Positions 1 through 29,058 of a stretch of DNA of 64,000 bases are shown here, piece after piece. Where the stretch lies: assembly GCF_900091625.1 (NCBI RefSeq), contig NZ_FMIC01000002.1, positions 6,262,001 through 6,326,000 on the forward strand, in the 5' to 3' direction. The notes beneath the pieces are model-generated. The model was not told the DNA's origin. It saw only the letters and a program-made list of their open reading frames with translations, and made no database searches. Origin of the DNA: Micromonospora peucetia. Its GTDB lineage: Bacteria; Actinomycetota; Actinomycetes; Mycobacteriales; Micromonosporaceae. A program made the position numbers and the translations under genes. The first letter of the stretch is position 1. Each line of letters opens with the position of its first letter.

Positions 1-3000
1 CCGGCGCTGCGGGGTGTCCAGGTCCACCGGCTTGGCCCCGGCGGGCGGCCAGGCCGGGGCGAGTGCGCCCCGGCCGCTCTCCGGGTCGACCGGGCCGAGC
101 ACGGCCTCGGCGACCTCCCGCCAGGGCTGCCCGTCACCGGCCCGGACGTGGCAGTGCGCCACCCGGCGCTGGTGCTCGTCCGGCGCGCAGACGCCGACCT
201 GCACCTCGAGGGTCAGCTCGGCGGGCAGCGGCACCGGCTCCGGGACGCGCAGCCGCTGCACGGTCGGGGTGCCGAGCCGTTCGCCGAGGTGGGTGAGCAT
301 GTCCAGCAGGGCGGTGGCGGGCAGCAGCGCGGGCGTGCCGTCACCGGGGGCGGCCAGCCACGGCTGTGCGGCCCCGGAGACCTGACCGGTGCAGACCACC
401 TGCCCGGTACCGGCGACCGGCAGCACCCCGCCGAGCAGCGGGTGCCCGGCGTCGGCCAGCCCGACGCCGACCGGGCCGCCGGCCCCGGCCGAGGCGGGCA
501 GCCAGTAGTGCCGACGCTGGAAGGCGTACGTGGGCAGGTCGACGCGGCGGTGCGGGCCGGGACCGGCGAGGGCGGCCCGGTCCACGGCGACGCCCCGCAC
601 GTGCAACCGCGCCACGGCGGCGAGCAGCGCCGCCGGCTCGTCGGCGACGCCCCGCACGGCCGGGACGAAGGCCAACTCGTCGGCCTCGGCCGCGAGGCAG
701 TCCTGGGCCATCGCGGTGAGCACACCGGCCGGACCGACCTCCAGGAAGGTGGTGACTCCCTGCCCGTGCAGGGCCCGCACGCCGTCGTGGAAGCGGACCG
801 TGCCCCGCACGTGCGCCACCCAGTGGTCGGGCGAGCAGAGCCGGGCCGGGTCGACGGGGTGACCGGTCAGGTTGGACACCACCGGCAGGTCCGGGGTGCG
901 GTACGTGAGGCCGGCCGCCACCGCGCGGAACTCGTCGAGCATCGGCTCCATGCGCGGCGAGTGGAACGCGTGTGACACCCGCAGTCGGCTGGTACGCCGC
1001 CCGGCGGCGCGCAGGGCGGCCTCGACGGCCAGCACGGCGTCGGTGTCGCCGGAGACGACGACGCTGGTCGGGCCGTTGACGGCGGCGAGGCCCACCCGGT
1101 CGGTCAGGTGCGCGGCGACCTCGGCCTCGTCGGCCTCGATGGCGACCATCGCGCCCCCGGCGGGAAGCTGCTGCATCAGCCGGGCCCGGGCGGCGACGAG
1201 CGCTGCGGCGTCGGCGAGGGAGAACACCCCGGCCACGTGCGCAGCGGCCAGTTCGCCGACGGAGTGGCCGAGCACCGCGTCGGGGCGTACCCCCCACGAC
1301 TCCAGCAGGCGGTACAGCGCCACCTCGAAGGCGAACAGCCCCGGCTGGGTGTACAGGGTCTGGTCGAGCAGGCCGGCCGCTTCGCCGCCCTCGTCGGCGA
1401 AGACGACGTCCACGACGGGGTGCGGGGCGTGTTCGGCAAGGCAGCGGTCGAGTTCCGCGCAGGCGGCGTCGAACGCGGCGGCGAAGACCGGGTACGCCGC
1501 GTGCAGTTCGCGGCCCATGCCGGCGCGCTGCCCGCCCTGCCCGCCGAAGAGCAGGCCGAGCCGGCCGTCGACGACCCGGCCGGTCAGCACGGTCGGGACG
1601 TCCGGCTCCGACTCGCTCCGAGTCAGCGCGGTCAGGCCCGCCCGGGCGGCGGTCGGGTCGCCGGCCAGCACCACGGCCCGGTGTTCGAGGGCGGCGCGGG
1701 TGGTGGCGAGCGCGTGCCCGACGTCGGCCGGGTCGGCGTCCGCCCCGGGCCCGTCGAGCCAGCCGAGCAGGCGGGCCGCCTGGTCCCGCAGCGCCTCGCC
1801 GGAGGCCGCGGCGAGCAGCCACGGTACGGGCGGACGCCGGGTGCCGGCGGTGGCGGTCTCAGCCGACGGCTGCCGGTCGGCGGTCCCGGGTCCGGACGGC
1901 AGGTCGGCTGGCGCCTCGACGATGACGTGGGCGTTGGTGCCGCTGATGCCGAACGACGAGATGCCGGCCCGGCGGGGCCGGCGCACCTCGGGCCACGGGC
2001 GGGCCTCGGCGAGCACCTCGACCGCGCCGGTGGACCAGTCCACCTCCGACGTCGGGGCGTCCACGTGCAGGGTGCGGGGCAGCACACCGTGCCGCATAGC
2101 GAGCACCATCTTGATCACCCCGGCGGCCCCGGCGGCGGCCTGGGTGTGGCCGAGGTTGGACTTCAGCGAGCCCAGCCGCAGCGGCTCGGCGTCGCCGCGT
2201 CCCGCCCCGTACGTGGCGAGCAGCGCCTGCGCCTCGATCGGGTCGCCCAGCCGGGTGCCCGTGCCGTGTGCCTCGACGACGTCCACGTCGGCGGTGCGCA
2301 GGCCGGCGGCTGCCAGCGCCCGGCGGATGACCCGCTCCTGGGCGGGCCCGCTGGGGGCGGTGAGCCCGTTGGACGCGCCGTCCTGGTTCACGGCGGAGCC
2401 GCGTAGCACGGCGAGGACGGGGTGTCCGCGCCGGCGGGCGTCGGAGAGCCGTTCCAGCAGCAGCACGGCGACGCCCTCGGACCAGCCGGTGCCGTCGGCG
2501 CCGTCGGCGAACGCCTTGCACCGCCCGTCCGGGGCGAGCCCGCGCTGCCGGCTGAACTCCACGAACGCCTGCGGGGTGCCCATCACCGCCACGCCGCCGG
2601 CCACGGCGAGGGAGCAGTCACCGGCGCGCAGCGCCTGGGCGGCCAGGTGCAGCGCCACCAGCGACGACGAGCACGCCGTGTCGACCGTGACCGCCGGTCC
2701 CTCCAGCCCCAGCGCGTACGCGACCCGGCCGGAGACGACACTGCCGGCGGTGCCGACGCCGAGGTAGCCCTCGGTGCCGGGCGGGGCCTGGCGCAGGTTG
2801 GCGGCGTAGTCGTGGTGCATGACGCCGGTGAAGACGCCGGTGGCGCTGCCGCGCAGGGAGGTGGGGTCGATACCGGCCCGCTCGAACAGCTCCCAGGACG
2901 TCTCCAGCAGCAGCCGCTGCTGCGGATCCATGGCAAGCGCCTCGCGCGGGCTGATCGCGAACAGGGTGGCGTCGAAATCCGCGGCGTCGGTCAGGAAGCC

Positions 3001-6000
3001 GCCCGTCCTGACGTACGAGGTGCCGGGCCGGTCGGGGTCGTCGGAGAACAGGTGCGCCAGGTCCCATCCCCGGTCGGTGGGAAACTCCGTGAGCCCTTCC
3101 CGGCCCTGGTCGACCAGGGCCCACAGGTCCTCGGGGGAGCCGATCCCGCCGGGGAGCCGGCAGGCCATGGCGACGACGACCACCGGATCGTCCATCGTGG
3201 ACGGGAGGGGAGGCCGGTCCAGCACCGTACCGGCCTGCGGGGTGACGCCGCGCAGCCGGTCGGCGAGGTGTCGGGCCAGGGCGTCGGGGCTGGGCCGGTC
3301 GAACGCGGCCGTGGCGGAGAGCCGTACCCCGGTGGCCCGGGCCAGCCGGTCGCGCAGGGCGACCGCGCTGACCGAGGTGAAGCCGAGCTCCTTGAAGGCC
3401 CGGCCCGGGCGGACGGCCGCCGCTCCGGGCAGGCCGGCCACCTCGGCGGTCGCGGCGCGGACCAGGTCGAGCACGAGCCGGTCGCCCTCGGCGGTCGTCA
3501 GGCCGGCCAGCCGGCGGCGCCATTCGGCGGCGTCCCGGTCGTCCTCGGCGGCGCGGGCCGCCGCGACGGGTCTGCGCCAGGCGGGGTGCGCGGCATCGGC
3601 GTGGCCCGCCGGACGGGCGAGCAGCACCAGGTCGTCGCGGTCGTGGGCCACGTCGAACGCGGCGAGGTCAGCGCGCAAGGCCGGCACAGCGAGGTCGGCG
3701 CGCACGGCCGACACGGCGGTCGTGCCGACGAGCCTGGCCGGGAAGCCGGCGGCCCGGCGGCGGGCGGCCAGGGCGTGCAGGGCGCCGATGGCCGAGGCGG
3801 CCCGCTCCTGGCCGGCGGCGCCCAGCAGCAGGGCGGACGGGGCGAGGACGGTGAACGCGGCGGCCGGGTGCCGGGTCCCGGCGTCCAGCGCGGCGGCGAG
3901 GCCGAGCAGCCGGACGACCGCCTCGTCGTCGGCCAGGTCGTCCTCGGACGGGCAGAGGAAGACCCCGCCGAGCGGCTCGTCACCCGACTGGTCGGCGGGC
4001 AGCGCGGCGGCCTCGGCACCGGCGGCGGTGAGTTCGGCGACCAGGTCCGCCAGGCCGGTCCCGGCCGTGGCGCCGGTGGGCAGCAACCGCAGCCGGCGGG
4101 CGCGGTGCGCCGCGACGAGGTGTCGGGCCAGCGCCGCGCCGGTCGGCCCGTCGGCGCCGGTGATCAGAACAGGGCGGGCCGGGTCGACCACCGTGGCCGG
4201 CCGCGCCGGCATGGCCGCCGGGGCGGGTACGAGGACCGCGTGCAGGGCGGTTCCGGCGCGGAGCGCGACCTGCGCGGCGCCGGCGTCCAGCACGGCCGGC
4301 AGCAGGGCGATCGAACTCTGTTCGTTGTCGCGGTCGACCAGCACGATCCGGTCCGGGTACGCGGCCTGCAGGCTGCGCCCGATCGCCGAGACCGCGCCGG
4401 CCGCTGGATCAGGCCCGGCCCATTCGGCGGCGTCGCCCGCGCCGGGGCCGGTGGCCGCGTTGCCGGCCACGCCGGGCGCGTCGCTCGCGCCGGGCTCGGT
4501 TGCCGCGTAGGGCTCAGTTGACGCGCCGGGCCCGGTTGCCGCGTCGCTCGCGGTGGCGTCGCCGGCCGGGCCGGTCAGCAGCAACAGCCGGGTGCCGGCG
4601 AACCGGTCGTCGTCGAGCCAGCCGCGCAGCCGGTCGGCGAGGTCCGCCGCGACGGTGTCGGCCGGGTCGACCAGCAGCACCGTCACGTCGGGCAGGTCCG
4701 GGGCCTCGCGCAGTGCGGCCAGGTCGCGGTGGGACCGGAACCGGTCCTCCGTCGACGCCGCGCGCAGCGGCGCCACCAGCACCTCGCTCCCCCGACCGAC
4801 GATCGCCCAGCGGCGGGCCGGGGCGACGGCGGCCTGGGCGGCCGTCGGGACGGGCGCCCCGACCGGCGGTACGGGGGTCAGGTCCAGCGGCTGCCAGGCA
4901 AGCAGGCTCAGCGCCTCGTGGTGACTGCCGTTGACCGCCCGCAGCCGGGCCGGCCGGCCGAGCAGGAGCCGGCGGGTGGCCTTGCCGGAGGCGGTGCGGG
5001 GCACCTGCGCGATCTCGTACAGCTCTTCCGGGACCTTGTGGTAGGAGAGCTTTTCGCGACAGGCCGCGTACCCGGCCCGGGGGTCGAAGCCCTCCGGGCC
5101 GGGCACCACGAATGCCACCGGCACCTCGCCGAGCACGTCGTGCGGGCGGCCGGTCACCGCCACGTCGGCGACGCCGGGCACCGCGCGCAGCGCCTCCTCC
5201 ACCTCGGCCGGGTGGATCTTCTCGCCACCCCGGATGATCAGCTCCTGGTGCCGCCCGGTGACGAAGATGTTGCCCTCGGCGTCACGGCGGGCCAGGTCTC
5301 CGGTGCGGTACCAGCCGTCGCGCAGCGCGGCGGCGGTGACCTCCGGCAGGCCGTGGTAGCCGAGCATGACGCTCGGCCCGCGGACCCAGACCTCGCCCTC
5401 GGCGCCGGTCGGCACGTCCAGGCCGGTCTGCGGGCTGACCAGGCGCACCTCGACGCCGGGCACCGCGAGCCCGCAGGAGCCCTCGACCCGGGGCCGGTCC
5501 GGCCGGGTGACGGCGATCGAGCCGCAGGTCTCCGTGCTGCCGTACGCGTCGAGCAGCGGCGCGTCGAAGACCTCCTCGAACGCCCGGCGCAGCGCGCCGG
5601 TGGTGATCGCCCCGCCGACCAGGCAGACCCGCAGGGCAGGGGCGCGGAAGCCGGTCTCCCGGGCGGCGGTGACGAGGTGGTGGTACATGGCCGGCACACC
5701 GGCCAGCACGGTGGCCTCGTCCTCGTCGACAGCGCGCAGCACGTCCTCGGCGGAGAATCCGTCGACGAGCCGGGCCGTGGCCCCGACCGCGGTCACGCTG
5801 AGCACGCACCCGATGTGGGAGAGGCTGTGGAACAACGGCAGCGGCCAGACCACCCGGTCGGCGGCGGTGAGCTCGGGGATCGGCACGTAGCAGGCGGCGA
5901 CGGACCAGAGGCAGGTCCGCTGGGTGGAGAGCACGCCCTTGGGCCGGCCGGTGGTGCCGGAGGTGTAGAGCATCCAGGCGACCTCGTCGAGGCCCAGGTC

Positions 6001-6480
6001 GTCACGGGCGTCCACACCCGGTTCGGTGTCGACCAGGTCACGCCACGCGGTGACGCCGTCGGGCACCGGGCCGTCCCCGGTGGACACGACCCGCAGGGCC
6101 GGCCGGTCGGCGCGCAGCCGCAGCAACTGGTCGAGGCGCTGAGGGTCGGTGACCACCAGCACCGCGCCGGAGTCGTCCAGCAGGTGTGCCAGTTCCGCAT
6201 CGGTGCTGTGCGGATTCACCGGTACGCCGACCGCGGCGGCCCGGGTGACGGCCAGCCAGGTCTCCACCGTCTCCACCCGGTTGCCGAGGCAGAAGGCCAC
6301 CCGGTCGCCCCGCCCGACCCCCGACGCCGCCAGGTGACCGGCCAGTCGGCGGGTCCGGGCTGCCAGATCGGCGTATCCGACGGCCCGGTGGTCGTCGCGG
6401 AACGCGACCTTGTTCCCCAACCTGGTGGCGTGGGCCTCGATCAGATCGGGCAACGGCTGGATCAGGTCGCTCCGAAGCAT
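1..6480 (-). CDS. AHBA-type loading module plus first extension module of a modular type I PKS (3' end outside window)
   Basis: The visible 2160 residues run from ATG at 6480 off the window edge. Order seen: acyl-AMP ligase domain (about 1-520; core YTSGTTGRPKG near 170, SGK lysine about 500), KR-like domain (about 765-930), ACP with GFTS serine about 1036, KS (DTACSSS cysteine about 1270, AHGTGT and SNLGH histidines), AT (GHSVG serine about 1740, HAFH about 1837-1840, the malonyl-CoA signature), then the start of a DH. The KR-like part keeps a GxxGxxG nucleotide loop, but its active-site stretch reads APSALLLGAAGQERAAS, without the catalytic Tyr. In the DH the usual HxxxGxxxxP reads PxxxTxxxxP, so it should be inactive. 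A ligase-KR-like-ACP start unit next to AHBA genes is what rifamycin-type synthases use to load AHBA; that the substrate is AHBA is inference. Product and number of later modules are not visible. Confidence 0.93.
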   Translation of the reverse strand, partial: MLRSDLIQPLPDLIEAHATRLGNKVAFRDDHRAVGYADLAARTRRLAGHLAASGVGRGDRVAFCLGNRVETVETWLAVTRAAAVGVPVNPHSTDAELAHLLDDSGAVLVVTDPQRLDQLLRLRADRPALRVVSTGDGPVPDGVTAWRDLVDTEPGVDARDDLGLDEVAWMLYTSGTTGRPKGVLSTQRTCLWSVAACYVPIPELTAADRVVWPLPLFHSLSHIGCVLSVTAVGATARLVDGFSAEDVLRAVDEDEATVLAGVPAMYHHLVTAARETGFRAPALRVCLVGGAITTGALRRAFEEVFDAPLLDAYGSTETCGSIAVTRPDRPRVEGSCGLAVPGVEVRLVSPQTGLDVPTGAEGEVWVRGPSVMLGYHGLPEVTAAALRDGWYRTGDLARRDAEGNIFVTGRHQELIIRGGEKIHPAEVEEALRAVPGVADVAVTGRPHDVLGEVPVAFVVPGPEGFDPRAGYAACREKLSYHKVPEELYEIAQVPRTASGKATRRLLLGRPARLRAVNGSHHEALSLLAWQPLDLTPVPPVGAPVPTAAQAAVAPARRWAIVGRGSEVLVAPLRAASTEDRFRSHRDLAALREAPDLPDVTVLLVDPADTVAADLADRLRGWLDDDRFAGTRLLLLTGPAGDATASDAATGPGASTEPYAATEPGASDAPGVAGNAATGPGAGDAAEWAGPDPAAGAVSAIGRSLQAAYPDRIVLVDRDNEQSSIALLPAVLDAGAAQVALRAGTALHAVLVPAPAAMPARPATVVDPARPVLITGADGPTGAALARHLVAAHRARRLRLLPTGATAGTGLADLVAELTAAGAEAAALPADQSGDEPLGGVFLCPSEDDLADDEAVVRLLGLAAALDAGTRHPAAAFTVLAPSALLLGAAGQERAASAIGALHALAARRRAAGFPARLVGTTAVSAVRADLAVPALRADLAAFDVAHDRDDLVLLARPAGHADAAHPAWRRPVAAARAAEDDRDAAEWRRRLAGLTTAEGDRLVLDLVRAATAEVAGLPGAAAVRPGRAFKELGFTSVSAVALRDRLARATGVRLSATAAFDRPSPDALARHLADRLRGVTPQAGTVLDRPPLPSTMDDPVVVVAMACRLPGGIGSPEDLWALVDQGREGLTEFPTDRGWDLAHLFSDDPDRPGTSYVRTGGFLTDAADFDATLFAISPREALAMDPQQRLLLETSWELFERAGIDPTSLRGSATGVFTGVMHHDYAANLRQAPPGTEGYLGVGTAGSVVSGRVAYALGLEGPAVTVDTACSSSLVALHLAAQALRAGDCSLAVAGGVAVMGTPQAFVEFSRQRGLAPDGRCKAFADGADGTGWSEGVAVLLLERLSDARRRGHPVLAVLRGSAVNQDGASNGLTAPSGPAQERVIRRALAAAGLRTADVDVVEAHGTGTRLGDPIEAQALLATYGAGRGDAEPLRLGSLKSNLGHTQAAAGAAGVIKMVLAMRHGVLPRTLHVDAPTSEVDWSTGAVEVLAEARPWPEVRRPRRAGISSFGISGTNAHVIVEAPADLPSGPGTADRQPSAETATAGTRRPPVPWLLAAASGEALRDQAARLLGWLDGPGADADPADVGHALATTRAALEHRAVVLAGDPTAARAGLTALTRSESEPDVPTVLTGRVVDGRLGLLFGGQGGQRAGMGRELHAAYPVFAAAFDAACAELDRCLAEHAPHPVVDVVFADEGGEAAGLLDQTLYTQPGLFAFEVALYRLLESWGVRPDAVLGHSVGELAAAHVAGVFSLADAAALVAARARLMQQLPAGGAMVAIEADEAEVAAHLTDRVGLAAVNGPTSVVVSGDTDAVLAVEAALRAAGRRTSRLRVSHAFHSPRMEPMLDEFRAVAAGLTYRTPDLPVVSNLTGHPVDPARLCSPDHWVAHVRGTVRFHDGVRALHGQGVTTFLEVGPAGVLTAMAQDCLAAEADELAFVPAVRGVADEPAALLAAVARLHVRGVAVDRAALAGPGPHRRVDLPTYAFQRRHYWLPASAGAGGPVGVGLADAGHPLLGGVLPVAGTGQVVCTGQVSGAAQPWLAAPGDGTPALLPATALLDMLTHLGERLGTPTVQRLRVPEPVPLPAELTLEVQVGVCAPDEHQRRVAHCHVRAGDGQPWREVAEAVLGPVDPESGRGALAPAWPPAGAKPVDLDTPQRR

Positions 6481-6704: not shown

Positions 6705-7541
6705 GTGCCGTCGTTGGAACGCTGCTGGTTGTTCGCCCGTTTGGCCGTGCCGGCCGACGGATGCCCGGACACGCGGGTGGTCGAGCTGGTCGGAACGGTA
6801 CTCACCGATCTGGTCGCCGCCGCCCGCCGGGGCGATCCGGGCACGGACTGGTTCTTCGACCGGGACGACTCCCCCGTCGGTCCGGGACTGAGCCTCGGCT
6901 TCCACGCCGCCCCGGCCGCGCTCGACGCGGTACGGGCGCGGCTGATCGCGTACGACCTGCGGGTCTCCTTCGCCGCCGACCCGTACGCGGTACGCGACGC
7001 CGCCCGGGGCGGCCCGCTCGCCTGGGCGGGCAGCGACCTGGCCCTGTCCCTGCTCGGCGGGAACGCCCCCTGGCTGGCCGGCGTCGAACTGCCGTTGGCC
7101 GTGGCGCACCTGCGGCACCTGACCGGGCTGGTGCCGGCGGGCGACCGGTTGACGTTCCTCTTCCTGCACTGGCAGGACCGCAGCCAACTGCTCACCGGAG
7201 CGCACCGGCGGAACCTGGCCGCGCAGGCGGACGCCGGGGCGGAGAAGATCGTCCTGGCGGCCGGCGACCTGCCGCTGGGCGGGGAGGTCGCCGCCGCGTG
7301 GCAGCTCTACCTGGACCGGGTTGCCGACGTGGTCAGCCGGGAGCAACCGGCGACGCCGCGCGGCTTCCTCCTCGCGCACCACGCCCAGCTCACCCACGAG
7401 CGGTGGGGCATCGGGCCGGACGTCGACTCGCTGGCCGCGCTGGCGCTGCGCCTGTCGATGGTCCGGGACCACCCGGTCGTCTCCCTGCCGATCCCCGTCC
7501 CGCAGAGAAGGCAGCAGCAACATGCACGCGTCGGCACCTGA
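6705..7541 (+). CDS. Lantibiotic-dehydratase C-terminal (SpaB_C / thiopeptide-type) domain-like protein
   Basis: 278 residues from a GTG start; no in-frame start was found further upstream. Two parts resemble the SpaB_C / thiopeptide-type bacteriocin biosynthesis domain. Near residue 50 is WFFDRDDSPVGPGLSLGFH, matching that family's WFFIRY-dpGpHLRlR block. Near the C-terminus is LAHHAQLTHERWGI, matching its HMHHNRLLGI-like block. In class I lanthipeptide and thiopeptide pathways this fold handles elimination of glutamylated Ser/Thr or related chemistry. No precursor peptide or LanB N-terminal glutamylation domain is visible here, so a different role in an AHBA/PKS/NRPS pathway is likely and unknown. 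Its 3' end overlaps the aminoDHQ synthase start by 20 nt, suggesting translational coupling. Assignment is by motif recall only. Confidence 0.55.
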   Translation: MPSLERCWLFARLAVPADGCPDTRVVELVGTVLTDLVAAARRGDPGTDWFFDRDDSPVGPGLSLGFHAAPAALDAVRARLIAYDLRVSFAADPYAVRDAARGGPLAWAGSDLALSLLGGNAPWLAGVELPLAVAHLRHLTGLVPAGDRLTFLFLHWQDRSQLLTGAHRRNLAAQADAGAEKIVLAAGDLPLGGEVAAAWQLYLDRVADVVSREQPATPRGFLLAHHAQLTHERWGIGPDVDSLAALALRLSMVRDHPVVSLPIPVPQRRQQQHARVGT

Positions 7542-8562: not shown

Positions 8563-8619
8563 GGGCAGCGGGCGCGTCCCGGGCGTGGCGGCGGACGATC
8601 GGTTTGCGCAGCGGGTCGC

Positions 8620-8647
8620 CCCCCGGGCCGCCACCGCGGCCCGGGGG
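8620..8647. terminator. Bidirectional hairpin terminator
   Basis: A 12-bp perfect stem (8620-8631 pairs with 8636-8647) with a CACC loop lies between the converging aminoDHQ synthase and ATP-grasp genes. It has no U-tract, as is common in actinomycetes. Confidence 0.7.
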
Positions 8648-8654
8648 ATGCGCG

Positions 8655-10534: not shown

Positions 10535-10591
10535 AGGGGTCGACGCGCACATCTCTAGGGGTGTACGCCACTCCACGAGGCTTCGTAGGGT
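10535..10591 (+). promoter_or_regulatory. TAGGGG half-sites upstream of the NRPS operon
   Basis: CTAGGGGT occurs at about 10533-10540 and again at 10555-10562, with AGGGG cores 22 bp apart. A weaker TAGGGT follows 30 bp later (10586-10591). These spacings are near whole helical turns. The motif matches the repeats before the PKS and AHBA synthase genes, so a shared activator site is inferred. Confidence 0.4.
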
Positions 10592-10681
10592 CGGGCCCCA
10601 TCGGTTCGTCGTTCCCTTTTCATCGCTACGGATCGGGGAAGAAATGTGGGTGCGCGGCGCACTGATGGACAGGAGGTGCCG

Positions 10682-11110: not shown

Positions 11111-11114
11111 GTTC

Positions 11115-14931: not shown

Positions 14932-18642
<3,711 letters not shown>

Positions 18643-18662
18643 GACTCCCGCCGGACGCCGCC

Positions 18663-18689
18663 CCGGCCGGCCAGCGTCACGCCGGCCGG
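18663..18689. terminator. Hairpin between converging NRPS and VWA genes
   Basis: CCGGCCGGC (18663-18671) pairs with GCCGGCCGG (18681-18689) across a 9-nt loop, 20 bases after the NRPS stop and ahead of the converging gene that ends at 18779. Confidence 0.55.
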
Positions 18690-18778
18690 CGCGGTCCGGT
18701 CGGCGTCGACCAGGGCACGGCCTGTTGAAGCGCGGTCACCTGCTCCCGGTCAGTTGCGGGGCCAGACGCGGACCGGCA

Positions 18779-20539: not shown

Positions 20540-20747
20540 CTGGTCCCTCCAGGGTGTCGGCTGGCGGCGTCGAGATCAGCCACCCGTCCCTGCCCCGGTG
20601 GACGACGCCCTGGCCGCCCGCACCCGACCGCCCGACGAACGGCGTCGATGCGACGGACGACAGAGGCATGGTGTCACGCCCCGCCGGCACGAAGGTCACT
20701 CGCCTTCGGCGTGTCGTATCGTCTTGCGCCGTCAGAATCGATCCGGA

Positions 20748-21580
20748 TCAGGTCACGCTCAGCGTCGCCGCGAGTTGGATGATCCTGCTCGGGGCCACCG
20801 GATACCGGGCGACCTGGGCGACGGCCTCCCGGGCGGCGGGGCGGTGGTGGATCTCGGTGGGTGCGGTGCGCTCCGCCTCGACCAGCGCTCGGCCGGCACT
20901 CACCGGATCGTCGGCCTGAAGGTACGCACGAGCCGCGTTGATCAGATGCTCCGCCCGGTGCTCGGCGGGCAACCATCGCCACGCGGGCCGATCGCCCGGT
21001 CGGCCGCCAGCCACGCCAGGTCGGCCTCACCGAGCTTGACCAGCAGTGCGGCGGTGACCCGGTAGGCGTCGACCAGCGGAGCCCGCCCCGGACCGGGGTA
21101 CCGAGCATGGGCGCGCTGCGCGTGGGCGAGAAGGTCCGGCACGAGGGCCGTCAGGCTCGGGTACCGGGCGTGCTGGTAGGTGGTCCAGGCGTGCGCGACC
21201 ATGCCCGCCACCCGCTCGACCGGCGCCACGACCCTTCCGGCCACCGGCGGGGCCAGGGCGATCTCGTACGTGCTCAACGTCGCCCGGACCTGGTCGACGC
21301 CCAGCATCCGGTGGCCGACGTCGGCCGGTTGCAGCTCCCGACCGAGAAGCGCTGGCACCTCGACCCGCAGCACGGTGGCGATCTCCTGAATGATGGACAG
21401 CCGGTCGAGGGACCGCACATCGGGTACATCGTGTACCCCACGTACGTGCCGCGACCGGGGGCGGGGAAGAACTGTCACACGGTGGGTTGTGGACGTAGCC
21501 TGGGATCTGGCGATGCCGCGTGCCACAGCGTGGCCTAGGGCCTCGTCATGCAGCCTTGAACGGGGAATCCGCGTTCCGTG
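20748..21580 (-). pseudogene. Decayed XRE-family helix-turn-helix regulator
   Basis: Two frames on the minus strand carry pieces of the long XRE-type regulators common in actinomycetes. The upstream piece (about 20942-21580) begins with ERGVHDVPDVRSLDRLSIIQEI-like sequence, the end of the DNA-binding domain, then an alpha-helical sensor region up to LGEADLAWLAADRA. The downstream piece (20748-21014) has the usual C-terminal helices (INAARAYLQADDPVSAGRAL...). The recognisable N-terminal HTH is broken, and roughly 100 residues seem to be missing at the frame change near 20950-21010. I read this as a relic with an internal deletion plus frameshift. The endpoint at 21580 is approximate. Confidence 0.6.
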
Positions 21581-21645
21581 GGGCGGTGGTGGCCGCCGGG
21601 CCGGCCCCGCGGGTGGAAAGGGTCGTACGACGCCGTCGAGCTGAG

Positions 21646-21718
21646 TCGTCTGCGACATCAGACGGCATCCGGCGCCATTGTGTGGGACCAGACGGCCCTG
21701 AATCGTCTGCGACATCAG
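21646..21718. repeat. 16-bp direct repeat with internal dyad
   Basis: TCGTCTGCGACATCAG occurs at 21646-21661 and again at 21703-21718. The first copy extends into an inverted repeat CGTCTG-N6-CAGACG (21647-21664). It lies in the gap between the decayed regulator and the lower-GC gene at 21968. Possible operator or recombination scar. Confidence 0.5.
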
Positions 21719-21967
21719 CTCGACAGGTCCGGCGCGGAGATCCTCCGCCAGCCGGCACCGTGGCGGATCCTGCCGCTCACCGCGAACCCAGATCTCGGTC
21801 GGGGCATGCCGGCCGCGCCAGAACAGTGGATCACCCGGTCAACGTTCTCAATCAAACGAACTCGACAGCCAGTATGGCGTCCACCGTTCGGCCATCTGGC
21901 GCAAGGTCCACTCGGCTGATCGAATCTGAGACTCAGCTGGGACGAGACGGCCTAAGGAGTTCAACGC

Positions 21968-22654
21968 ATGGCAACAGATGCCCACGACAGACCGGTTCCA
22001 GAAGCAGGCGTACGTGGGCAGCAGGTCCTCGACCTCCTGCATAAGGCAATCGACATCCAAGGCCCACTGGTGCGCAAGAACATCGCCAGGGCCCGTCAGC
22101 GGAACCCAGAAGCGACACCAGCAGAGGTAATCCGCAATCTGGAGCGGATGTACGTCAGCGCCTTGACCGGGACGGGTGCTGCAGTTGGCGGAGCTGCAGC
22201 AGCGCCCGGCGTCGGCACGGGCGTCGCACTGGCACTGTCGGCCGGCGAGGCCTTCTCATCTCTTGAGCTGAGCGCCCTCTTCGCGCTCTCGATCGCCGAA
22301 GTCCACGGAGTCCCCATCGACGAGATCGAGCGCCGCCGAACGATCGTGCTGGGAATCATGCTCGGCGGCTCCGGCTCCGCCACCATTACTAAGGTCGCCG
22401 AGCGTACGGGGCAACACTGGGCACGTCAGGTTGTCGCCAAGGTGCCTGGCGAGACGTTGAAGCAAATCAACAAGATCTTGGGGAGACACTTCATCACGAA
22501 GTACGGGACCAAGCAGGGAATCATCGTTCTCGGTCGGGTGGCACCGTTCGGTATCGGCGCTGTGATTGGTGGTGGCGCCAACGCTGCCCTCGCCACTCTG
22601 GCTGTGCGGGCCGGTCGTCGCGCATTTGGCCCACCCCCGACGTCGTGGCCATAG
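21968..22654 (+). CDS. Hypothetical membrane-associated protein, possibly EcsC-like
   Basis: 228 residues; ATG at 21968 with AAGGAG about ten bases upstream. The N-terminus is polar and helical. The middle has a Gly/Ala-rich hydrophobic stretch (about 65-85, GTGAAVGGAAAAPGVGTGVALAL). The C-terminal part (GTKQGIIVLGRVAPFGIGAVIGGGANAALATLAVRAGRRAF) resembles the end of EcsC-family proteins, which are associated with membranes but poorly understood. Base composition is visibly less G/C-rich than the neighbours, as is the preceding 250 nt, consistent with acquisition from elsewhere. No link to the biosynthetic genes is evident. Confidence 0.65.
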   Translation: MATDAHDRPVPEAGVRGQQVLDLLHKAIDIQGPLVRKNIARARQRNPEATPAEVIRNLERMYVSALTGTGAAVGGAAAAPGVGTGVALALSAGEAFSSLELSALFALSIAEVHGVPIDEIERRRTIVLGIMLGGSGSATITKVAERTGQHWARQVVAKVPGETLKQINKILGRHFITKYGTKQGIIVLGRVAPFGIGAVIGGGANAALATLAVRAGRRAFGPPPTSWP

Positions 22655-22771
22655 CTGACTCGCAGCACACTCCAGTCAGGACAGATGGGGCGCGGACGCC
22701 GGTGGGGACAGCGGCTCAAGCAGTTGCGGCGGCGGCTGAAAAGTGTCGGTGCCCGGCACTACGGTGACCCG

Positions 22772-23284
22772 ATGACCGATGTATCCGTCGCGCCCGTGGT
22801 CCGCAGCCGCCCTCCAGAGGACGGCGGCGAGCGCGAGATCCTGTCCGGCCTGCTCGACTTCCTGCGTGCCTCGGTCGTGAACAAGGTCGCCGGGCTCACC
22901 GACGAGCAGGCGTTCGGCCGGCCGGTGCCCGCGTCCGGGCTCACCCCCGCGGGGCTGGTCAAGCACCTGACCGGGGTGGAACGGTACTGGTTCAGCATCG
23001 ACTTCGCCGGCCACGATCTGCCCCCGCCGTGGACCGACGACCAGCCCGGCGCGTTCGCTCTCGTCCCCGAGGACTCGCTGGCTGAGATCGTCGAGGCGTA
23101 CCTGGCTGAGTGCGCGCGGTCCGCCGCGGTCGTTGTGGGCGCGACGCTCGACGACCGCGCCCGGGCCGCCGACGTTTCCTTCACACTGCGGTACGCGCTG
23201 GCGCACATGGTCCAGGAGACCGCGCGTCACTGCGGCCACCTCGATCTGCTGCGCGAGAGCATCGACGGGCAGGCCGGCGAATAG
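22772..23284 (+). CDS. DinB / DUF664-family protein
   Basis: 170 residues from ATG at 22772, the usual length for this family. Conserved positions of the metal-binding four-helix bundle are visible: LVKHLTGVERYWF (first His), AHMVQETARHCGHLDLLRE (later His residues) and a Trp/Phe-rich middle. Actinobacterial members are often thiol-dependent (mycothiol) transferases or of unknown function. It ends 19 nt before the converging phosphatase gene. A detoxification role is possible but not shown. Confidence 0.75.
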   Translation: MTDVSVAPVVRSRPPEDGGEREILSGLLDFLRASVVNKVAGLTDEQAFGRPVPASGLTPAGLVKHLTGVERYWFSIDFAGHDLPPPWTDDQPGAFALVPEDSLAEIVEAYLAECARSAAVVVGATLDDRARAADVSFTLRYALAHMVQETARHCGHLDLLRESIDGQAGE

Positions 23285-23303
23285 TCGGGCTCCCCGGTGC
23301 GGG

Positions 23304-23999
23304 TCAGTGGACGAGGGCCGCCGGGCAGTGCGCGAGCAGCTCGGTCGGGGCGTGGATGACCAGGTCCGGGCCGGCTGCGAGCAGCGCGGCGACGTCCCCG
23401 CCGTGCCAGGTGGTGGCGACCGAGGTCGCTCCGGCGTCCCGGCCGCTGAGCAGGTCGATCACCGCGTCGCCGACCATCATGGCCTCGTGCGGCGGCACGT
23501 CGAGGTGGCCCAGCGCCTGGAGCACGATGTCCGGGGCGGGCTTGGGGCGGGCCACCTCGTCGGAGCCGATCACCTGGTCGAAGAGGTAGAGCACGCCGAG
23601 CTGGTCGAGCAGCGAACGGGCCCGGGGGCCGGCCTTGCCGGTGGCAACCGCCATCCGGATGCCGCGCGCGTGCAGGGCCTCCAGGGTCTCGCGTACGCCG
23701 GGGAAGAGCGGCACCAGGTGCGCCATCCGGTAGCTCTCCCGGACGAAGGGCTCCTCCATCGCCAGCGGCAGGCCCATCAGCCGCATGATGTCCGGGAAGT
23801 ACCGGCCCATGTGCCGGTTGTACTCCTCGAACGGCGCCGGACCGTCGCCCACCACCTCGGCGTACGCGATGCTGAACGCCTCCCGCATGACGGCGGAGCT
23901 GTCGACGATGACGCCGTCGAGGTCGAACACGACCGCGCGGATCGGACCACGGGCCGGCGACTGCGGGGTCACCTCGACGGTGGCTGGTGGATGGCTCAT
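23304..23999 (-). CDS. rifM-like: HAD-superfamily phosphatase (AHBA pathway, RifM type)
   Basis: 231 residues. HAD motif I is VVFDLDGVIVDSS (about residues 24-36), motif II the ATGK region (about 120), and motif IV MVGDAVIDLLSGRDAGATSVA near 175-195; a small cap lies between. RifM-type phosphatases are among the AHBA-specific genes thought to act in making the kanosamine-derived precursor of the amino-shikimate pathway. It lies downstream of AHBA synthase and the oxidoreductase on the same strand with a 37-nt gap, matching the K-L-M order of known AHBA clusters. Confidence 0.88.
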   Translation of the reverse strand: MSHPPATVEVTPQSPARGPIRAVVFDLDGVIVDSSAVMREAFSIAYAEVVGDGPAPFEEYNRHMGRYFPDIMRLMGLPLAMEEPFVRESYRMAHLVPLFPGVRETLEALHARGIRMAVATGKAGPRARSLLDQLGVLYLFDQVIGSDEVARPKPAPDIVLQALGHLDVPPHEAMMVGDAVIDLLSGRDAGATSVATTWHGGDVAALLAAGPDLVIHAPTELLAHCPAALVH

Positions 24000-24036: not shown

Positions 24037-25170
24037 TCACCGGTCGCGATGGCCCGCCAGCACGTGCTGCCGCTCCGGCTCGGTGGGCCGGGCGGACTGG
24101 TAGATCCGTTCGATGATGTCGATGGTCCGGCGCGTCTCGGCGACGGCCGCGCCCCGGCGTGTCGGGTCGGCGAGCAGCCCGGGGAGGGCGTCGAGTTGGC
24201 GGTCGTACTCGACGCCGATCGGCTCCTCGGGCAGCGGCAGCCGGACGGTCTCGCCGTCGCGGGTGCGGGTCAGCACCGGCGTCGGCTCCCGGTTGGGGCT
24301 GAACCCGAACGTGCAGCGCAGCGTCGCCGACCCGGTGGCGCCGTGCACGGTGATGGTGGTGCGGTCCAGCGACTCGTGCGAGGCCCAGCAGGCGTGCAGG
24401 GCGACCGACGCCCCGTCGGCGGTGAGCAGGAAACCCCGGGCGGTGTCCTCGACGTCCCCGCGGGCGCGGCCACCGGTGCCGGCATCGCTGCGCCAGGCGG
24501 CGTGCGCGGCGCTGTCGTTGACGAAGTCGTCGGAGACGCTGCCGATGGCGTGGGTGACCCGGGTCGGGCCGAGCATCGGCAGCACCGTGTCGAGCAGGTG
24601 CCAGCCGAGGTCCACCAGCGCACCCCCGCCGGAGAGGTCGCGGCGGGTGAACCAGCCGCCCGCGTCGGGCACGCCCCGGGCGCGGACCCAGGCCACGTCG
24701 ACGTGCCGGATCGGGCCCAGCTCGTCGGCCGCCTCGGCCAGCGCCCGGATGTCGGCGCGCCACCGGGCGGCACTGCCGGCCAGCAGCAACGACCTGCCGT
24801 CACGTTCCGCGTCGGCGAGCACCTCCGCCTCGGCGGAGGTGAGGCAGACCGGCTTCTCCAGGAACACCGGCACACCCCGGCGCAGCAGCCGGGCGGCGAC
24901 GGTCGCGTGCAGGTGGTTGGGGACGGCCACCACCACCAGGTCGACCGCGCCGACGGGCAGGTCGTCGACGTCGGCGTACGCGAAGGGCACCGCGTGGGTG
25001 TCGCGGGCGGCGTCCCGGACGGCCGGTTGCGGGTCGACCAGGGCGGTCACCTCGAAGCCCGGATGCGCGGCGAGCCGGGGCAGCCAGATCTCGCGCCCGG
25101 CCCACCCGAGGCCGGCCACCGCGACCCGTACCGGCCGGTCGGGCGCGGCGGCCGGGGGCAGGGCCGTCAT
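24037..25170 (-). CDS. rifL-like: Gfo/Idh/MocA-type oxidoreductase (AHBA pathway, RifL type)
   Basis: 377 residues. The N-terminal Rossmann fold begins VRVAVAGLGWAGREIWLPRL (residues 14-33); an EKPVC segment near 100 carries the family's conserved lysine. The C-terminal alpha/beta domain follows. RifL homologues are proposed to oxidise UDP-glucose to the 3-keto sugar that AHBA synthase (RifK) then aminates on the way to kanosamine. The start codon overlaps the AHBA synthase stop (ATGA, 25167-25170), so the two are translationally coupled. Confidence 0.9.
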   Translation of the reverse strand: MTALPPAAAPDRPVRVAVAGLGWAGREIWLPRLAAHPGFEVTALVDPQPAVRDAARDTHAVPFAYADVDDLPVGAVDLVVVAVPNHLHATVAARLLRRGVPVFLEKPVCLTSAEAEVLADAERDGRSLLLAGSAARWRADIRALAEAADELGPIRHVDVAWVRARGVPDAGGWFTRRDLSGGGALVDLGWHLLDTVLPMLGPTRVTHAIGSVSDDFVNDSAAHAAWRSDAGTGGRARGDVEDTARGFLLTADGASVALHACWASHESLDRTTITVHGATGSATLRCTFGFSPNREPTPVLTRTRDGETVRLPLPEEPIGVEYDRQLDALPGLLADPTRRGAAVAETRRTIDIIERIYQSARPTEPERQHVLAGHRDR

Positions 25171-26330
25171 CCGGCGAGGATGTCGGCCAGCACGGCGGCG
25201 ATGTCGTGCATCTGCTGCTCGGTGCCGAGCAGCGTGCGGTGGTGCAGCCAGATGCAGTCGGAGTGGATCAGCTCGGTGTTGGGGCAGCGGGCGGCGACCG
25301 ACTCGACCGACTCGTCGGGCGCGCCGGCCTTCCAGAAGCCGTCGCAGCGGTAGATCGCTCGGAACGCCACGAACGCCGGCACGCCCCGGGCGATGAGGGC
25401 GTCCACGACCTCGCGGCGGCGCGCGACGTCCATGCCGGGGACGCGGAACATCGCCATGTAGTGCGGGTTGCGGTCGGTCCGGGGGTCGGCGGACTGCGGG
25501 ACGACGCCGGGGATCTCGGCGAGCAGGCTCGACAGCAGCGGCCAGCGCTGCTCGCGCAGCGCGATCTGCTCATCGAGGCGGGCCAGTTGGGCGCGCAGCA
25601 CGGCGGCGGTGAACTCACCCATCCGGTAGTTCGAGCCGGTGGTGCTGTGCAGGTAGTCCCGGTCGGTGCGGGGGCGACCGCAGCTGTGCACGAGGAACGC
25701 CCGCTCGCGCAGCTCCTCGTCGGGGAAGAGCACCGCCCCGCCCTCACCGGCGGTCATCAGCTTGCCGTTCTGGAAGCTGAACGCGGCCACCGAGCCGAGC
25801 GCCCCGGCCCGCTTGCCCTGCCACTGCGCGCCGTGGGCGTGCGCGGCGTCCTGGAGCAGCGCCACCCCGGCGTCGGCGGCGAGCTTGTCCAGTGCGTCCA
25901 TGTCGGCGAACTGGCCGGCCATGTGCACCGGCATGATGACCCTGGTACGGGGGGTGATCGCGGCCTCGACGGCGGCCGGGTCGATGCAGTAGGTGTCCAG
26001 GTCGACGTCGACCGGCACGGCGACCGCACCGAGGCGCTGCGCCGCCAGCGAGGACGAGATGAACGTGAAGGCCGGCACGATGACCTCGGTGCCCGGACCG
26101 ACGCCGAGCACCTCCAGGGCCACCTCCAGCGCGTGCGTGCCGTTGGTGACGGCGAGCGCGTGCGGCGTGCCGTGGTACGCCCCGAACTCCGCTTCGAAGG
26201 AGTCGACCTCGCTGCCACCCATCCGCCACCACTGGCCCTGCTCGAGGGCGCGGATCAGGCCGGCGCGCTCCTCGTCGCCGAACTGCGGCCACGCGGGGAA
26301 CTCCGGCACCGTCGAGGGCTGACCACTCAT
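25167..26330 (-). CDS. rifK-like: AHBA synthase (RifK type, DegT/DnrJ/EryC1 fold)
   Basis: 387 residues from ATG at 26330, preceded by GGGAAG; RifK has 388. PLP-enzyme features: TNGTHALEVAL (about 58-68), the Asp in LLQDAAHAHGAQW, and the Schiff-base lysine about residue 190 in FQNGKLMTAGEGG, followed by SNYRMGEFTAAVLRAQL. AHBA synthase aromatises 5-deoxy-5-amino-3-dehydroshikimate to 3-amino-5-hydroxybenzoate and also serves as an aminotransferase in precursor supply. It heads a K-L-M operon driven from the divergent region at 26331-26665. It is the best single marker that the PKS uses AHBA. An upstream ATG would add 16 residues but has no ribosome-binding site. Confidence 0.95.
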   Translation of the reverse strand: MSGQPSTVPEFPAWPQFGDEERAGLIRALEQGQWWRMGGSEVDSFEAEFGAYHGTPHALAVTNGTHALEVALEVLGVGPGTEVIVPAFTFISSSLAAQRLGAVAVPVDVDLDTYCIDPAAVEAAITPRTRVIMPVHMAGQFADMDALDKLAADAGVALLQDAAHAHGAQWQGKRAGALGSVAAFSFQNGKLMTAGEGGAVLFPDEELRERAFLVHSCGRPRTDRDYLHSTTGSNYRMGEFTAAVLRAQLARLDEQIALREQRWPLLSSLLAEIPGVVPQSADPRTDRNPHYMAMFRVPGMDVARRREVVDALIARGVPAFVAFRAIYRCDGFWKAGAPDESVESVAARCPNTELIHSDCIWLHHRTLLGTEQQMHDIAAVLADILAG

Positions 26331-26525
26331 GACTTCCCACTTCCCAACTCGGGCAGACCAGGGGCTTCGCCGGACCATCGGGCGGGACGGCCCGGGACCG
26401 CCGGTACGCGGTCCGGGCGCACCGGGGCGTCGGATGGCCGGTTCGAGGTAGGTGACGCACCGGTTGGAGCCGGCGGCATCGCTTCAGCAGGGAGGACGGT
26501 AACCGAAGCGGACACACGGTCACCG

Positions 26526-26665: not shown

Positions 26666-27097
26666 GTGCCGGACGTGCTGCTGTTGAACGGCCCGAACCT
26701 GGGCATCCTCGGCCAACGGGAGCCGGAGATCTACGGCACCGACACCCTGGACGACATCGAACGGGCGGTCGGCGAGGAGGTCGCCGCCCGGGGTTGGCGG
26801 GTGGTGGCCGAGCAGCACGACTGCGAGGGCGCGCTGATCCGCGCGATCCAGAACAACTACGACACCGTGGGTGCCATCGTCAACCCGGGCGCGCTGATGA
26901 TCGCGGGCTGGAGCCTGCGCGACGCGCTGGCCAACTATCCCCGGCCCTTCATCGAGGTGCACCTGTCCAACGTCTGGGCCCGGGAGAGTTTCCGCCACGA
27001 CTCGGTGATCGCCCCGCTGGCCAGCGGTCTCATCGCTGGGCTCGGGGCGCTGGGGTATCGGTTGGCCGCCCGAGCCCTCGTCGCGACCGTCCGATGA
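26666..27097 (+). CDS. rifJ-like: Aminodehydroquinate dehydratase (type II fold, RifJ type)
   Basis: 143 residues, the usual size of type II dehydroquinases; GTG start with AGGTGA upstream. LNGPNLGILGQREPEIYGT carries the catalytic Arg and Tyr loop (about 6-24), IVNPGALMIAGWSLRDAL is the substrate loop, and FIEVHLSNVWARESFRH the active-site His region. Housekeeping enzymes usually have Thr-His-Thr/Ser after NPGA; here that loop reads LMIAGWS, consistent with an amino-substituted substrate. It should dehydrate 5-amino-3-dehydroquinate to 5-amino-3-dehydroshikimate, the AHBA synthase substrate. It is transcribed divergently from AHBA synthase and leads the DoxX, ROK kinase and flavin reductase genes. 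Confidence 0.9.
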   Translation: MPDVLLLNGPNLGILGQREPEIYGTDTLDDIERAVGEEVAARGWRVVAEQHDCEGALIRAIQNNYDTVGAIVNPGALMIAGWSLRDALANYPRPFIEVHLSNVWARESFRHDSVIAPLASGLIAGLGALGYRLAARALVATVR

Positions 27098-27188: not shown

Positions 27189-27542
27189 GTGCGCATTCCC
27201 ATCCTCGTCCTGACCCTCATCCTCGCCGCGGTGTTCCTGGGCACCGCCGTACCGAAGCTCACCGGGCAGACGCAGATGCGCGAACGGATGGACCACCTCG
27301 GCGTCTCCACCGGGCTGACCCGCCTGCTCGGGGTGCTGGAGATCGCCGCAGTCGCCGGGTTGCTGCTCGGCCTGCTCTGGCCGCCGCTGGGCATCGCGGC
27401 GGCGATCGGTCTCACCCTGCAGATGGCGGGTGCGGCGGTCTACCACGCCCGCGCGAAGGACCCGGCCGGAATGACCCTGACGCCGGTGATCTTCGCCGTG
27501 GCCACCGTGGCGCTCGTGGTCCTGCACGTGCAGCAGGGCTGA
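27189..27542 (+). CDS. DoxX-family small membrane protein
   Basis: 117 residues from GTG at 27189, with GAAGGA eight bases upstream. Four hydrophobic segments are visible (about 3-20, 43-62, 66-86 and 95-113), with the conserved TAVPKLTGQ motif after the first, as in DoxX proteins. Relatives act in membrane redox or oxidative stress processes, but most lack a known reaction. It sits between the aminoDHQ dehydratase and the ROK kinase with gaps of 91 and 7 nt, so it is co-transcribed with AHBA genes; its role there is unknown. Confidence 0.8.
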   Translation: MRIPILVLTLILAAVFLGTAVPKLTGQTQMRERMDHLGVSTGLTRLLGVLEIAAVAGLLLGLLWPPLGIAAAIGLTLQMAGAAVYHARAKDPAGMTLTPVIFAVATVALVVLHVQQG

Positions 27543-27549: not shown

Positions 27550-28485
27550 GTGCCTGGTCCGCAGTGGCGCGACGGCGTGCTGGGCGTCGACGTCGGCGGT
27601 ACCAAGGTGGCGCTACGCGCCGAGGCGGGCGGGCGCCCGGCGTACGACCGGATCTTCCGCTGGCCACGCGGTGCCGACCCGGCCGCCGACCTGGCCGCCC
27701 TGGCCGCCGAGGTGGACCGGCTGCGCGACGAGTGGGGGCCGGTCGGCGCGGTCGGGGTGGCGATGCCGGCGACCACGGACCCGGCGGGCACCGTCACGAC
27801 GTGGCCCGGCCGGCCGGGCTGGGCAGGCCTGGATTTCGCCGGCGCGCTGCGCCGTATCTTCCCCGACGCGGTGACCGCGGTCGCCGACGACGGCGACCTC
27901 GCCGCGCTGGCCGAGGCCCGGCACGCCGGCCGGGACGACGTGGTCTATCTGGGCGTCGGCACCGGGATCGGTGGCGGCGTGGTGCTGGCGGGGCGGTCGG
28001 TGCCCGGCCGCTCCTCCGCCGAGGTCGGACACATGGTCGTCGCCCTCGACGGCGAGCCCTGCGACTGCGGCCGGCGCGGCTGCCTCCAGTCGATCGCGTC
28101 CGGCCCGGCCACCCTGCGCCGGGCGGGTGCCGGTCGGGGCGCCGAGGTGAGTTTCGACGACCTGCGGGCGGGGCTGGACGGGGGCCTGCCCTGGGCGGTG
28201 GCGGCGGTCGACGCGAGCTGCCGGGCGCTGGCGGCGGCGGTGGTCAGCCTCGGCGAGCTGCTGGACCCGACGCTGGTGGTCGTCGGCGGCGGGTTCGCCG
28301 CCGGGCTGCCCGGCTTCGTCCCGCTCGTCGCCGAGCGGGCGCGCTCCGCCGGCCGGCCCGGGCGGCCGGCGCCGCCGGTGCGGGCCGCCGCCCTCGGCGC
28401 GTTGTCGTCCCTGCACGGCGCGGTGGAGCTGGCCCGCAGTCTGACCGAAGCGCCGTCCACCGTACATCCCATCCCCACCCCCTAG
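27550..28485 (+). CDS. rifN-like: ROK-family sugar kinase (AHBA pathway, RifN-type kanosamine kinase)
   Basis: 311 residues from GTG. The N-terminal ATP-binding loop reads GVDVGGTKVALRAE (about 10-23). The second loop is GVGTGIGGGVVLAG (about 136-149). The catalytic and zinc-binding part is AEVGHM followed by CDCGRRGCLQS, the ROK CxCGxxGC signature. RifN phosphorylates kanosamine at C6, the entry step to aminoDAHP. It lies 7 nt after the DoxX gene and 12 nt before the flavin reductase gene, so it is part of one operon. A glucokinase role is the alternative, less likely here. Confidence 0.9.
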   Translation: MPGPQWRDGVLGVDVGGTKVALRAEAGGRPAYDRIFRWPRGADPAADLAALAAEVDRLRDEWGPVGAVGVAMPATTDPAGTVTTWPGRPGWAGLDFAGALRRIFPDAVTAVADDGDLAALAEARHAGRDDVVYLGVGTGIGGGVVLAGRSVPGRSSAEVGHMVVALDGEPCDCGRRGCLQSIASGPATLRRAGAGRGAEVSFDDLRAGLDGGLPWAVAAVDASCRALAAAVVSLGELLDPTLVVVGGGFAAGLPGFVPLVAERARSAGRPGRPAPPVRAAALGALSSLHGAVELARSLTEAPSTVHPIPTP

Positions 28486-28497: not shown

Positions 28498-29058
28498 ATG
28501 GTCAGGATTGGTGTCATCGTCGGCAGCACGCGGCCCGGCCGCAAGGCCGACGCCGTGGCCCGTTGGGTGACCGACGTCGCCGCCAAGCGGAACGACGCCA
28601 CGGTCGAGCTGGTCGACATCGCCGACTACGAACTGCCGCACTTCGACGAGGTGCTGCCGCCGTCGATGGCGCCGTCGAGGCGTCCCGCCGTACGCCGGTG
28701 GGCGTCGACCGTCGCCGGGTTCGACGGCTTCGTCTTCGTCACCCCGGAGTACAACCACTCGATCCCGGGCGCGCTGAAGGACGCCGTCGACTTCCTCTTC
28801 CAGGAGTGGCAGCACGCGTCCGCCGGCTTCGTCAGCTACGGCGTGCACGGCGGCACCCGGGCGGCGGAGCACCTGCGGCTGGTGCTCGGGCAGCTCGGGG
28901 TGGCCGACGTCCGGTCCCAGGTCGCGCTCTCCCTGATGACCGACTTCGTCAACTTCCGCGACTTCCGGCCGGCGGCACACCACGAGCAGGCCCTCGGCAC
29001 CATGCTCGACGAGGTGGTCACCTGGGCCGGCGCGCTGCGGACGCTCCGCCGGGGCTGA
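28498..29058 (+). CDS. NADPH-dependent FMN reductase family protein
   Basis: 186 residues; ATG preceded by GAGGAG. It has a flavodoxin-like fold: GVIVGSTRPGRKAD (FMN phosphate loop, 5-18) and VTPEYNHSIPGALKDAVD (FMN ring contact, about 81-98), the hallmarks of the NADPH-dependent FMN/quinone reductase family. It could supply reduced flavin or reduce a quinone or nitroso intermediate of an AHBA-derived compound; this is inference from its place as last gene of the plus-strand AHBA operon. No matching flavin monooxygenase is visible nearby apart from the siderophore hydroxylase. Confidence 0.85.
   Translation: MVRIGVIVGSTRPGRKADAVARWVTDVAAKRNDATVELVDIADYELPHFDEVLPPSMAPSRRPAVRRWASTVAGFDGFVFVTPEYNHSIPGALKDAVDFLFQEWQHASAGFVSYGVHGGTRAAEHLRLVLGQLGVADVRSQVALSLMTDFVNFRDFRPAAHHEQALGTMLDEVVTWAGALRTLRRG

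Follow-up and report, generated by a model that had tools for sequence, protein, structure and literature searches.

The window, a 64,000-nucleotide stretch of the Micromonospora peucetia genome (G000:C2:6262001-6326000; genome size 7.37 Mb), was analysed by means of an ORF list, coding composition, and Pfam and NCBIfam searches, and coding composition was found for all named genes except the ATP-grasp frame, which failed this filter and was taken from the ORF list. Its left end encodes the N-terminal portion of a QnmA1-like protein, the first of the PKS (1-6480, minus strand), in which an AMP-binding ligase, a KR-like domain and an ACP are followed by module 1 (KS-AT-DH) and which runs on to the left of the window. 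An Rfam match to the ASpks antisense RNA at 2161-2235 lies inside this gene and probably reflects just shared PKS coding sequence. Next come the genes for a SpaB_C-like protein (6705-7541, plus strand; 21.6 bits, under the Pfam cut-off of 24.4) and an aminoDHQ synthase-like protein (7522-8562, plus strand; Pfam and NCBIfam), the start of the latter being set by eye at the methionine of MHASAP in a longest ORF from 7321. An ATP-grasp ligase gene (8655-9845, minus strand) and two NRPS genes (NRPS1, 11115-14807, and NRPS2, 14932-18642, both plus strand) diverge across a conserved spacer (9846-11114) and form an accessory cassette, defined here as the ATP-grasp gene plus one to three divergently transcribed A-T-C NRPS copies.

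The remaining starter-end genes lie further right. On the minus strand they encode an AHBA-synthesis phosphatase of the RifM type (23304-23999; TIGR01454, 327 bits against a cut-off of 247), a GFO/IDH/MocA oxidoreductase with a putative RifL role (24037-25170; Pfam, NCBIfam) and AHBA synthase (25167-26378; 617 bits to the solved AHBA synthase 1b9h). On the plus strand follow a type II dehydroquinase, the putative aminoDHQ dehydratase (26666-27097; Pfam, NCBIfam), a DoxX-like membrane protein (27189-27542; Pfam), a ROK kinase that may act as kanosamine kinase (27550-28485; Pfam, NCBIfam) and an NADPH-dependent FMN reductase-like protein (28498-29058; Pfam). The AHBA-synthesis roles of the oxidoreductase, the DHQ synthase-like protein, the dehydroquinase and the ROK kinase are presumed by analogy with the rifamycin pathway, and on this analogy AHBA would be supplied by the local operon. 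No gene is assigned to the aminoDAHP synthase step, since the lone class II DAHP synthase detected in the genome lies far from the cluster, at G000:C2:3915481-3916764. The sequence-only reading of the locus had named an AHBA operon, an acyl-ligase PKS loading module, two A-T-C NRPSs, an ATP-grasp protein and a SpaB_C-like protein, and all of these are present, the last as a weak match.

That reading held that no known AHBA family fits the gene set and advised extending the sequence left of position 1; the extension showed that one does. The PKS, read whole over contig C2 positions 6070001-6270000, covers ~179 kb (G000:C2:6089256-6268480) in 15 minus-strand frames and consists of a ligase-KR-ACP loading module and 33 KS modules, the last frame ending in a TE (C-terminal GHSGG, read by eye from the sequence). 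The first PKS gene is adjoined by a FAD monooxygenase gene. Set against the qnm order in Table 3 of PMC8698034, the reductive-domain sets are equal in 31/33 modules and the AT types in 30/30 modules callable on both sides; the departures from that table are module 4, which has no detectable DH, and module 33, which has no KR. Beyond the TE lie two LAL-type regulators (AAA_16 plus GerE proteins; G000:C2:6078905-6085275), and a table of PMC9697125 assigns quinolidomicin A1 to a 213.7 kb region with LAL regulators, naming qnmRI and qnmRII. The fourth PKS gene (modules 8-11; G000:C2:6200685-6223365) is present as three overlapping frames, while in the relatives G103 and G031 it is a single frame of ~7,540 codons, which points to two frameshifts or assembly errors in this strain.

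The AHBA starter genes and acyl-ligase loading module, the 33 modules in published order, the TE and the adjacent LAL-type regulators place this PKS in the quinolidomicin type, and we are nearly certain that the locus is the starter end of such a cluster. Since module order, reductive sets and AT types match qnm, this AHBA-primed PKS belongs to a system already known, and the chain that it starts from AHBA most probably becomes quinolidomicin or one of its congeners, insofar as the qnm cluster is portrayed in secondary papers (reference entry MIBiG BGC0002520, as given in PMC11965639). According to the passages available of PMC9054317, quinolidomicin A1 is a macrolide whose quinone bears an amino group; these passages make no mention of a peptide part. 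An ordinary ansamycin was ruled out by reading the PKS to its end at 33 modules. A DNA search also located two more modular PKS regions in the genome (G000:C2:642862-676979 and 6407507-6415213).

Clusters of this type are described as widespread in Micromonospora in the parts available of PMC8698034 and PMC9967187. Across 160 Micromonospora genomes, among them that of the window, three markers (AHBA synthase at no less than 84% identity, SpaB_C-like protein at no less than 66% and the qnm TE at no less than 78%) coincided in the identical 27 genomes. Looser matches outside these 27 comprised AHBA synthase in five genomes (71-74%), the SpaB_C-like protein in one (G013, 40%) and the TE in 16 (38-48%). 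The TE and AHBA synthase share a contig in 17/27 genomes, 178-204 kb apart; the PKS span was measured for those 17, the other ten having the two ends on separate contigs. In a midpoint-rooted tree of three core proteins, the 27 genomes split into clade I (support 1.0) and clade II (support 0.99). The SpaB_C-like gene was found in 27/27 of them, in two as partial matches, and is a core gene of qnm-type clusters. Among its aligned members, 13/17 matched Lant_dehydr_C (best 1.2e-7), and no solved-structure relative was found. In G013 (L221), outside the qnm type, the 40%-identity relative lies ~3 kb from an AHBA synthase of 72% identity, and the link of this protein with AHBA may therefore be wider.

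The two NRPS proteins of the window have the order remnant C, A, T, C in Pfam searches, with ~200 aa upstream of each A domain that resemble the second half of a C domain when read by eye; the start of NRPS2, whose longest ORF runs from 14845, was placed by eye as homologous to MSVGF of NRPS1. Both end in a C domain, as the sequence-only reading had noted; this domain carries HHxxxDG, and Pfam found no PKS-type domain in either protein. HHxxxDG in the C domain and LGGTS in the T domain are kept in 27/27 NRPS proteins from 12 genomes; frames were chosen partly by the C motif, yet every counted copy was recovered, the G043 fragments apart. The A-domain lysine pattern was matched in 14/27. With A-code positions set by GrsA numbering and two positions unread in 8/27 codes, the code starts DAGF in 11/12 first copies, and DVGF in the first copy of G019 and in 15/15 later copies; we know of no substrate that fits either beginning. 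The C domains fall into about three types by position in a comparison of 14 proteins, and the final C domains in G012 and G065 look like the middle one of a genome with three copies; C type is thus not strictly tied to end position. In M. marina the single NRPS joins, in frame, a first-copy remnant C-A-T (99% over A to the first G034 NRPS) to a last-copy C domain (90% overall and 93% near the end to the C of the last G034 NRPS). Relative to the window genome, dN/dS was 0.22-0.31 for NRPS1 (9/10 pairs; the G024 cell, >2, dropped as misaligned), 0.15-0.25 for AHBA synthase (8/9 pairs; the G065 cell, >2, dropped likewise) and about 0.13-0.27 for the ATP-grasp gene (10 pairs).

The ATP-grasp protein gave no Pfam match at E 0.5, and its database relatives carry PF27267. 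All 15/15 aligned members, the window protein included, matched the NCBIfam LdmS model (NF047900) at ~94 bits against a cut-off of 475, and their profile matched PDB 7r8p (5.6e-18, residues 44-321 of 396). By these family and profile matches the protein appears to contain an ATP-grasp domain distantly related to LdmS, below the cut-off for membership in the LdmS model; a literature search for a paper on LdmS found none. Among 20 database proteins retrieved as relatives, with the best 8000 candidates scored, 11/11 named ones are from Micromonospora, M. chalcea among them. The spacer between the ATP-grasp gene and NRPS1 is conserved to 79% over 1037 bases in G103. It shows no frame bias that would indicate a coding gene (76, 65 and 73 mismatches of ~336 each), and Rfam returned no known RNA at gathering score, the one match being at chance level (E 0.55).

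The cassette is an optional part of these clusters. Its ATP-grasp gene occurs in 16/27 qnm-type genomes versus 0/133 other Micromonospora genomes, and in 17/354 genomes of the family, the additional one at 28% identity. With four candidates scored per genome, relatives of NRPS1 of at least 65% identity were found in at least 15/16 of the ATP-grasp genomes, and the sixteenth, G102, has an NRPS piece in record L122. The ATP-grasp gene adjoins NRPS genes in 12/12 other genomes inspected (in G043 as two pieces). Besides the window, 10 of these 12 carry the cassette in the slot flanked by the genes for aminoDHQ synthase and AHBA phosphatase, and the remaining two carry it off-site: G012 about 1 Mb from the cluster, beside two-component, MerR and DUF6194 genes, and G043 on other contigs. 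These two are sister genomes with a common site. Contig coordinates place the ATP-grasp gene by the SpaB_C-like gene in G015, G044 and G102, and in all 14/16 cassette genomes carry the cassette at the starter end of their cluster. Leaving out G015, G043, G044 and G102 owing to contig breaks, and with the window included, four genomes have three NRPS copies, seven have two and one has one. When 18 window genes were sought in the 50 kb around the G012 off-site copy, the ATP-grasp and NRPS genes were the sole matches, and hence no partner gene was seen travelling with the cassette. The window also holds, at 30648-36013, IucA/IucC, acetyltransferase, Lys/Orn monooxygenase and PLP decarboxylase genes, which we take by gene order to be a desferrioxamine-type siderophore set. 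Assignment of the NRPSs to these right-hand genes was rejected, as the IucA/IucC and MFS genes tested for were absent beside the off-site cassette.

The slot (window 8562-23304; also L082, L084, L085 and L087) is a variable site. In 11 named Micromonospora loci, among the 45 of 110 loci inspected, NRPS sequence lies beyond the phosphatase gene in five (C31, M. chalcea DSM 43026, M. marina, M. halophytica and MW-13) and is missing from five (M. rubida, M. okii, M. haikouensis, RP3T and NBS 11-29), the contig of M. maritima ending too early to show it; that of M. chalcea DSM 43026, a strain of the species to which the quinolidomicin producer belongs, ends within a region of NRPS gene pieces. Read by eye, slots without a cassette differ in content: M. 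okii and M. rubida have a phosphotransferase-like gene there, M. okii and M. haikouensis a methyltransferase gene, and the slot of RP3T is nearly empty. The window genes at 18779-23284 are outside the conserved set; a VWA/solute-binding gene and one with a weak EcsC-like match lie in the slot here as well. A mycothiol-S-transferase family gene at 22685-23284, seen also in G103 and partly in G031, is located near what is a quinone-antibiotic cluster and possibly serves self-protection.

By clade, the cassette is found in 0/9 genomes of clade I versus 16/18 of clade II, the two exceptions being G068 and G088 (by contig coordinates M. okii and M. rubida). Cassette-free genomes of both clades retain both PKS ends; where measured, the distance between these is 178-186 kb (six clade-I genomes) or 200 kb (G068). 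The ATP-grasp tree follows the core tree broadly, not exactly, and the history, judged by eye, is most simply explained by a single gain, two losses and one relocation. Since the tree shows almost one evolutionary event, the count of 16/27 versus 0/133 is weak proof of coupling, and the Fisher value of 3e-15 for cassette against qnm type was set aside as independent evidence. A description of the cassette in a qnm-type cluster was not found in the portions available of the quinolidomicin literature, the original qnm paper lying outside the search. No A-T-C gene appears alongside the qnm PKS in the tables of PMC8698034 and PMC9967187; for TP-A0316 these give an incomplete A/T-C and A/T pair on another scaffold, which may be a relocated cassette.

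The cassette appears intact, although the macrolide seems not to need it. Our preferred hypothesis is that it makes an aminoacyl group of one to three residues and joins it to the quinolidomicin scaffold, a proposal to which we give about even chances. As suggested by the chemistry of the characterised qnm cluster, the acyl ligase would load AHBA, the 33 PKS modules would extend it and the terminal TE would release the product. Every NRPS copy would charge its own T domain with one amino acid, and the growing acyl chain would be handed on by the C domain of that copy. Since no TE gene is seen in the cassette, the final C domain, alone or together with the ATP-grasp enzyme, may release the chain by transfer to a free amine or hydroxyl; as an LdmS-like amide ligase, the ATP-grasp protein could form one further amide bond. 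The likeliest acceptor would be the quinolidomicin scaffold or the AHBA-derived arylamine; the scaffold is suggested by the location of the cassette and by an ATP-grasp gene unseen in qnm-free genomes of the genus. The products would be aminoacyl or short peptidyl congeners with a length following NRPS copy number. It is conceivable, and we put it forward tentatively, that a relocatable cassette adds one, two or three residues according to the number of NRPSs, so that the clade holds a graded peptidyl-quinolidomicin series.

Tailoring of the scaffold is favoured by the confinement of the cassette ATP-grasp gene to qnm-type genomes (16/16 among the 27), and by NRPS motifs kept in 27/27 proteins, low dN/dS and the in-frame M. 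marina fusion. Against it, clade I (0/9) and two clade-II genomes keep both PKS ends without a cassette, the off-site cassettes of G012 and G043 could work alone, the genomic association amounts to almost one evolutionary event, and quinolidomicin A1 has an amino group on its quinone with no peptide part mentioned in the passages of PMC9054317. The main rival, a somewhat doubtful one in our view, is that the cassette is an independent small unit making a di- or tripeptide or an amide and merely occupies a permissive slot of the qnm cluster. Its presence off-cluster in G012 and G043 at a common site, its absence from clade I and the quite different genes that fill the slot in M. okii, M. rubida and M. 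haikouensis would all fit such a unit, but the ATP-grasp gene is in 0/133 genus genomes without this cluster type; the named relatives among the 20 database proteins (11/11, best 8000 candidates scored) are all Micromonospora, and no partner gene accompanies the G012 copy (18 window genes, 50 kb).

Alternatively, the cassette could protect the AHBA amine transiently during chain building, with the group removed later, as in vicenistatin-type macrolactams, where an aminoacyl group protects the amino starter according to the sections available of PMC11284099. The cassette lies beside the genes for AHBA and the loading module, the line terminates in a TE, and quinolidomicin as portrayed in PMC9054317 is a macrolide that bears an amino group on the quinone, all of which would agree with protection. 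This explanation is nevertheless improbable, given that 11/27 qnm-type genomes do without the cassette, NRPS number varies from 1 to 3, and the conserved starter-end genes include no recognisable amidohydrolase, though a penicillin-acylase gene does lie at window 38098-40218. The sequence-only reading had called a hybrid of an AHBA-started chain and amino-acid-derived units plausible and possibly a new chemotype, which can be taken as an AHBA-PKS-NRPS line with the NRPSs in one assembly line with the PKS. The position of the cassette at the starter end in 14/16 cassette genomes speaks for it, but the PKS is the known qnm line with its own TE, the cassette is missing from 11/27 clusters and elsewhere in two, and the NRPSs have no PKS-type domain. 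The locus is not among hybrid lines in which an NRPS is needed for or joined to the PKS chain; this reading is very improbable and has been largely refuted by the module match and the cassette-free clusters.

What survives of the earlier idea, that amino-acid-derived units join the AHBA chain, is the proposed scaffold tailoring in a narrower form. With 9/9 clade-I genomes lacking the cassette, the NRPSs do not seem necessary for the AHBA-started chain; an aminoacylated congener is plausible in that the NRPS/ATP-grasp set is undescribed for this cluster type in the quinolidomicin papers as far as these were available and its ATP-grasp gene occurs, in the genus, only in qnm-bearing genomes. The claimed novelty of the gene set likewise shrinks to this set, the PKS and the SpaB_C-like gene being of known type. 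The apparent new chemotype becomes a known giant macrolide cluster, and what is new here is the accessory NRPS and ATP-grasp cassette, optional and tied to one lineage, a novelty that is real but modest. If the cassette acts on the macrolide, strains with one, two and three NRPSs would be natural variants for finding new congeners, and would offer a way to learn how a terminal C domain passes a peptide to a large acceptor.

In relation to known systems, the vicenistatin-type protection of PMC11284099, as far as that source was available, shares with our proposal the principle that the amine of a polyketide starter is aminoacylated; however, those clusters use separate adenylation enzymes common to them, whereas here an optional A-T-C NRPS cassette would do so. 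With the LdmS L-aspartate--L-methionine ligase (NF047900; PDB 7r8p) the window protein has the ATP-grasp region in common, as a distant relative. Rifamycin-type ansamycin clusters resemble the locus in AHBA synthase, oxidoreductase, phosphatase, DHQ synthase-like protein and the ligase-KR-ACP loading module, but differ in that the line here has 33 modules and a TE at its end. Rifamycin-type lines have about 10 modules, and in ansamycin clusters a RifF-type amide synthase releases the chain. The closest counterpart is the qnm cluster of Micromonospora chalcea AK-AN57 as tabulated in PMC8698034: relative to it the window strain lacks the module-4 DH and the module-33 KR and has a fourth PKS gene split by two apparent frameshifts, while both clusters have an AHBA-type loading module, 33 modules in the same order, a TE and LAL-type regulators alongside.
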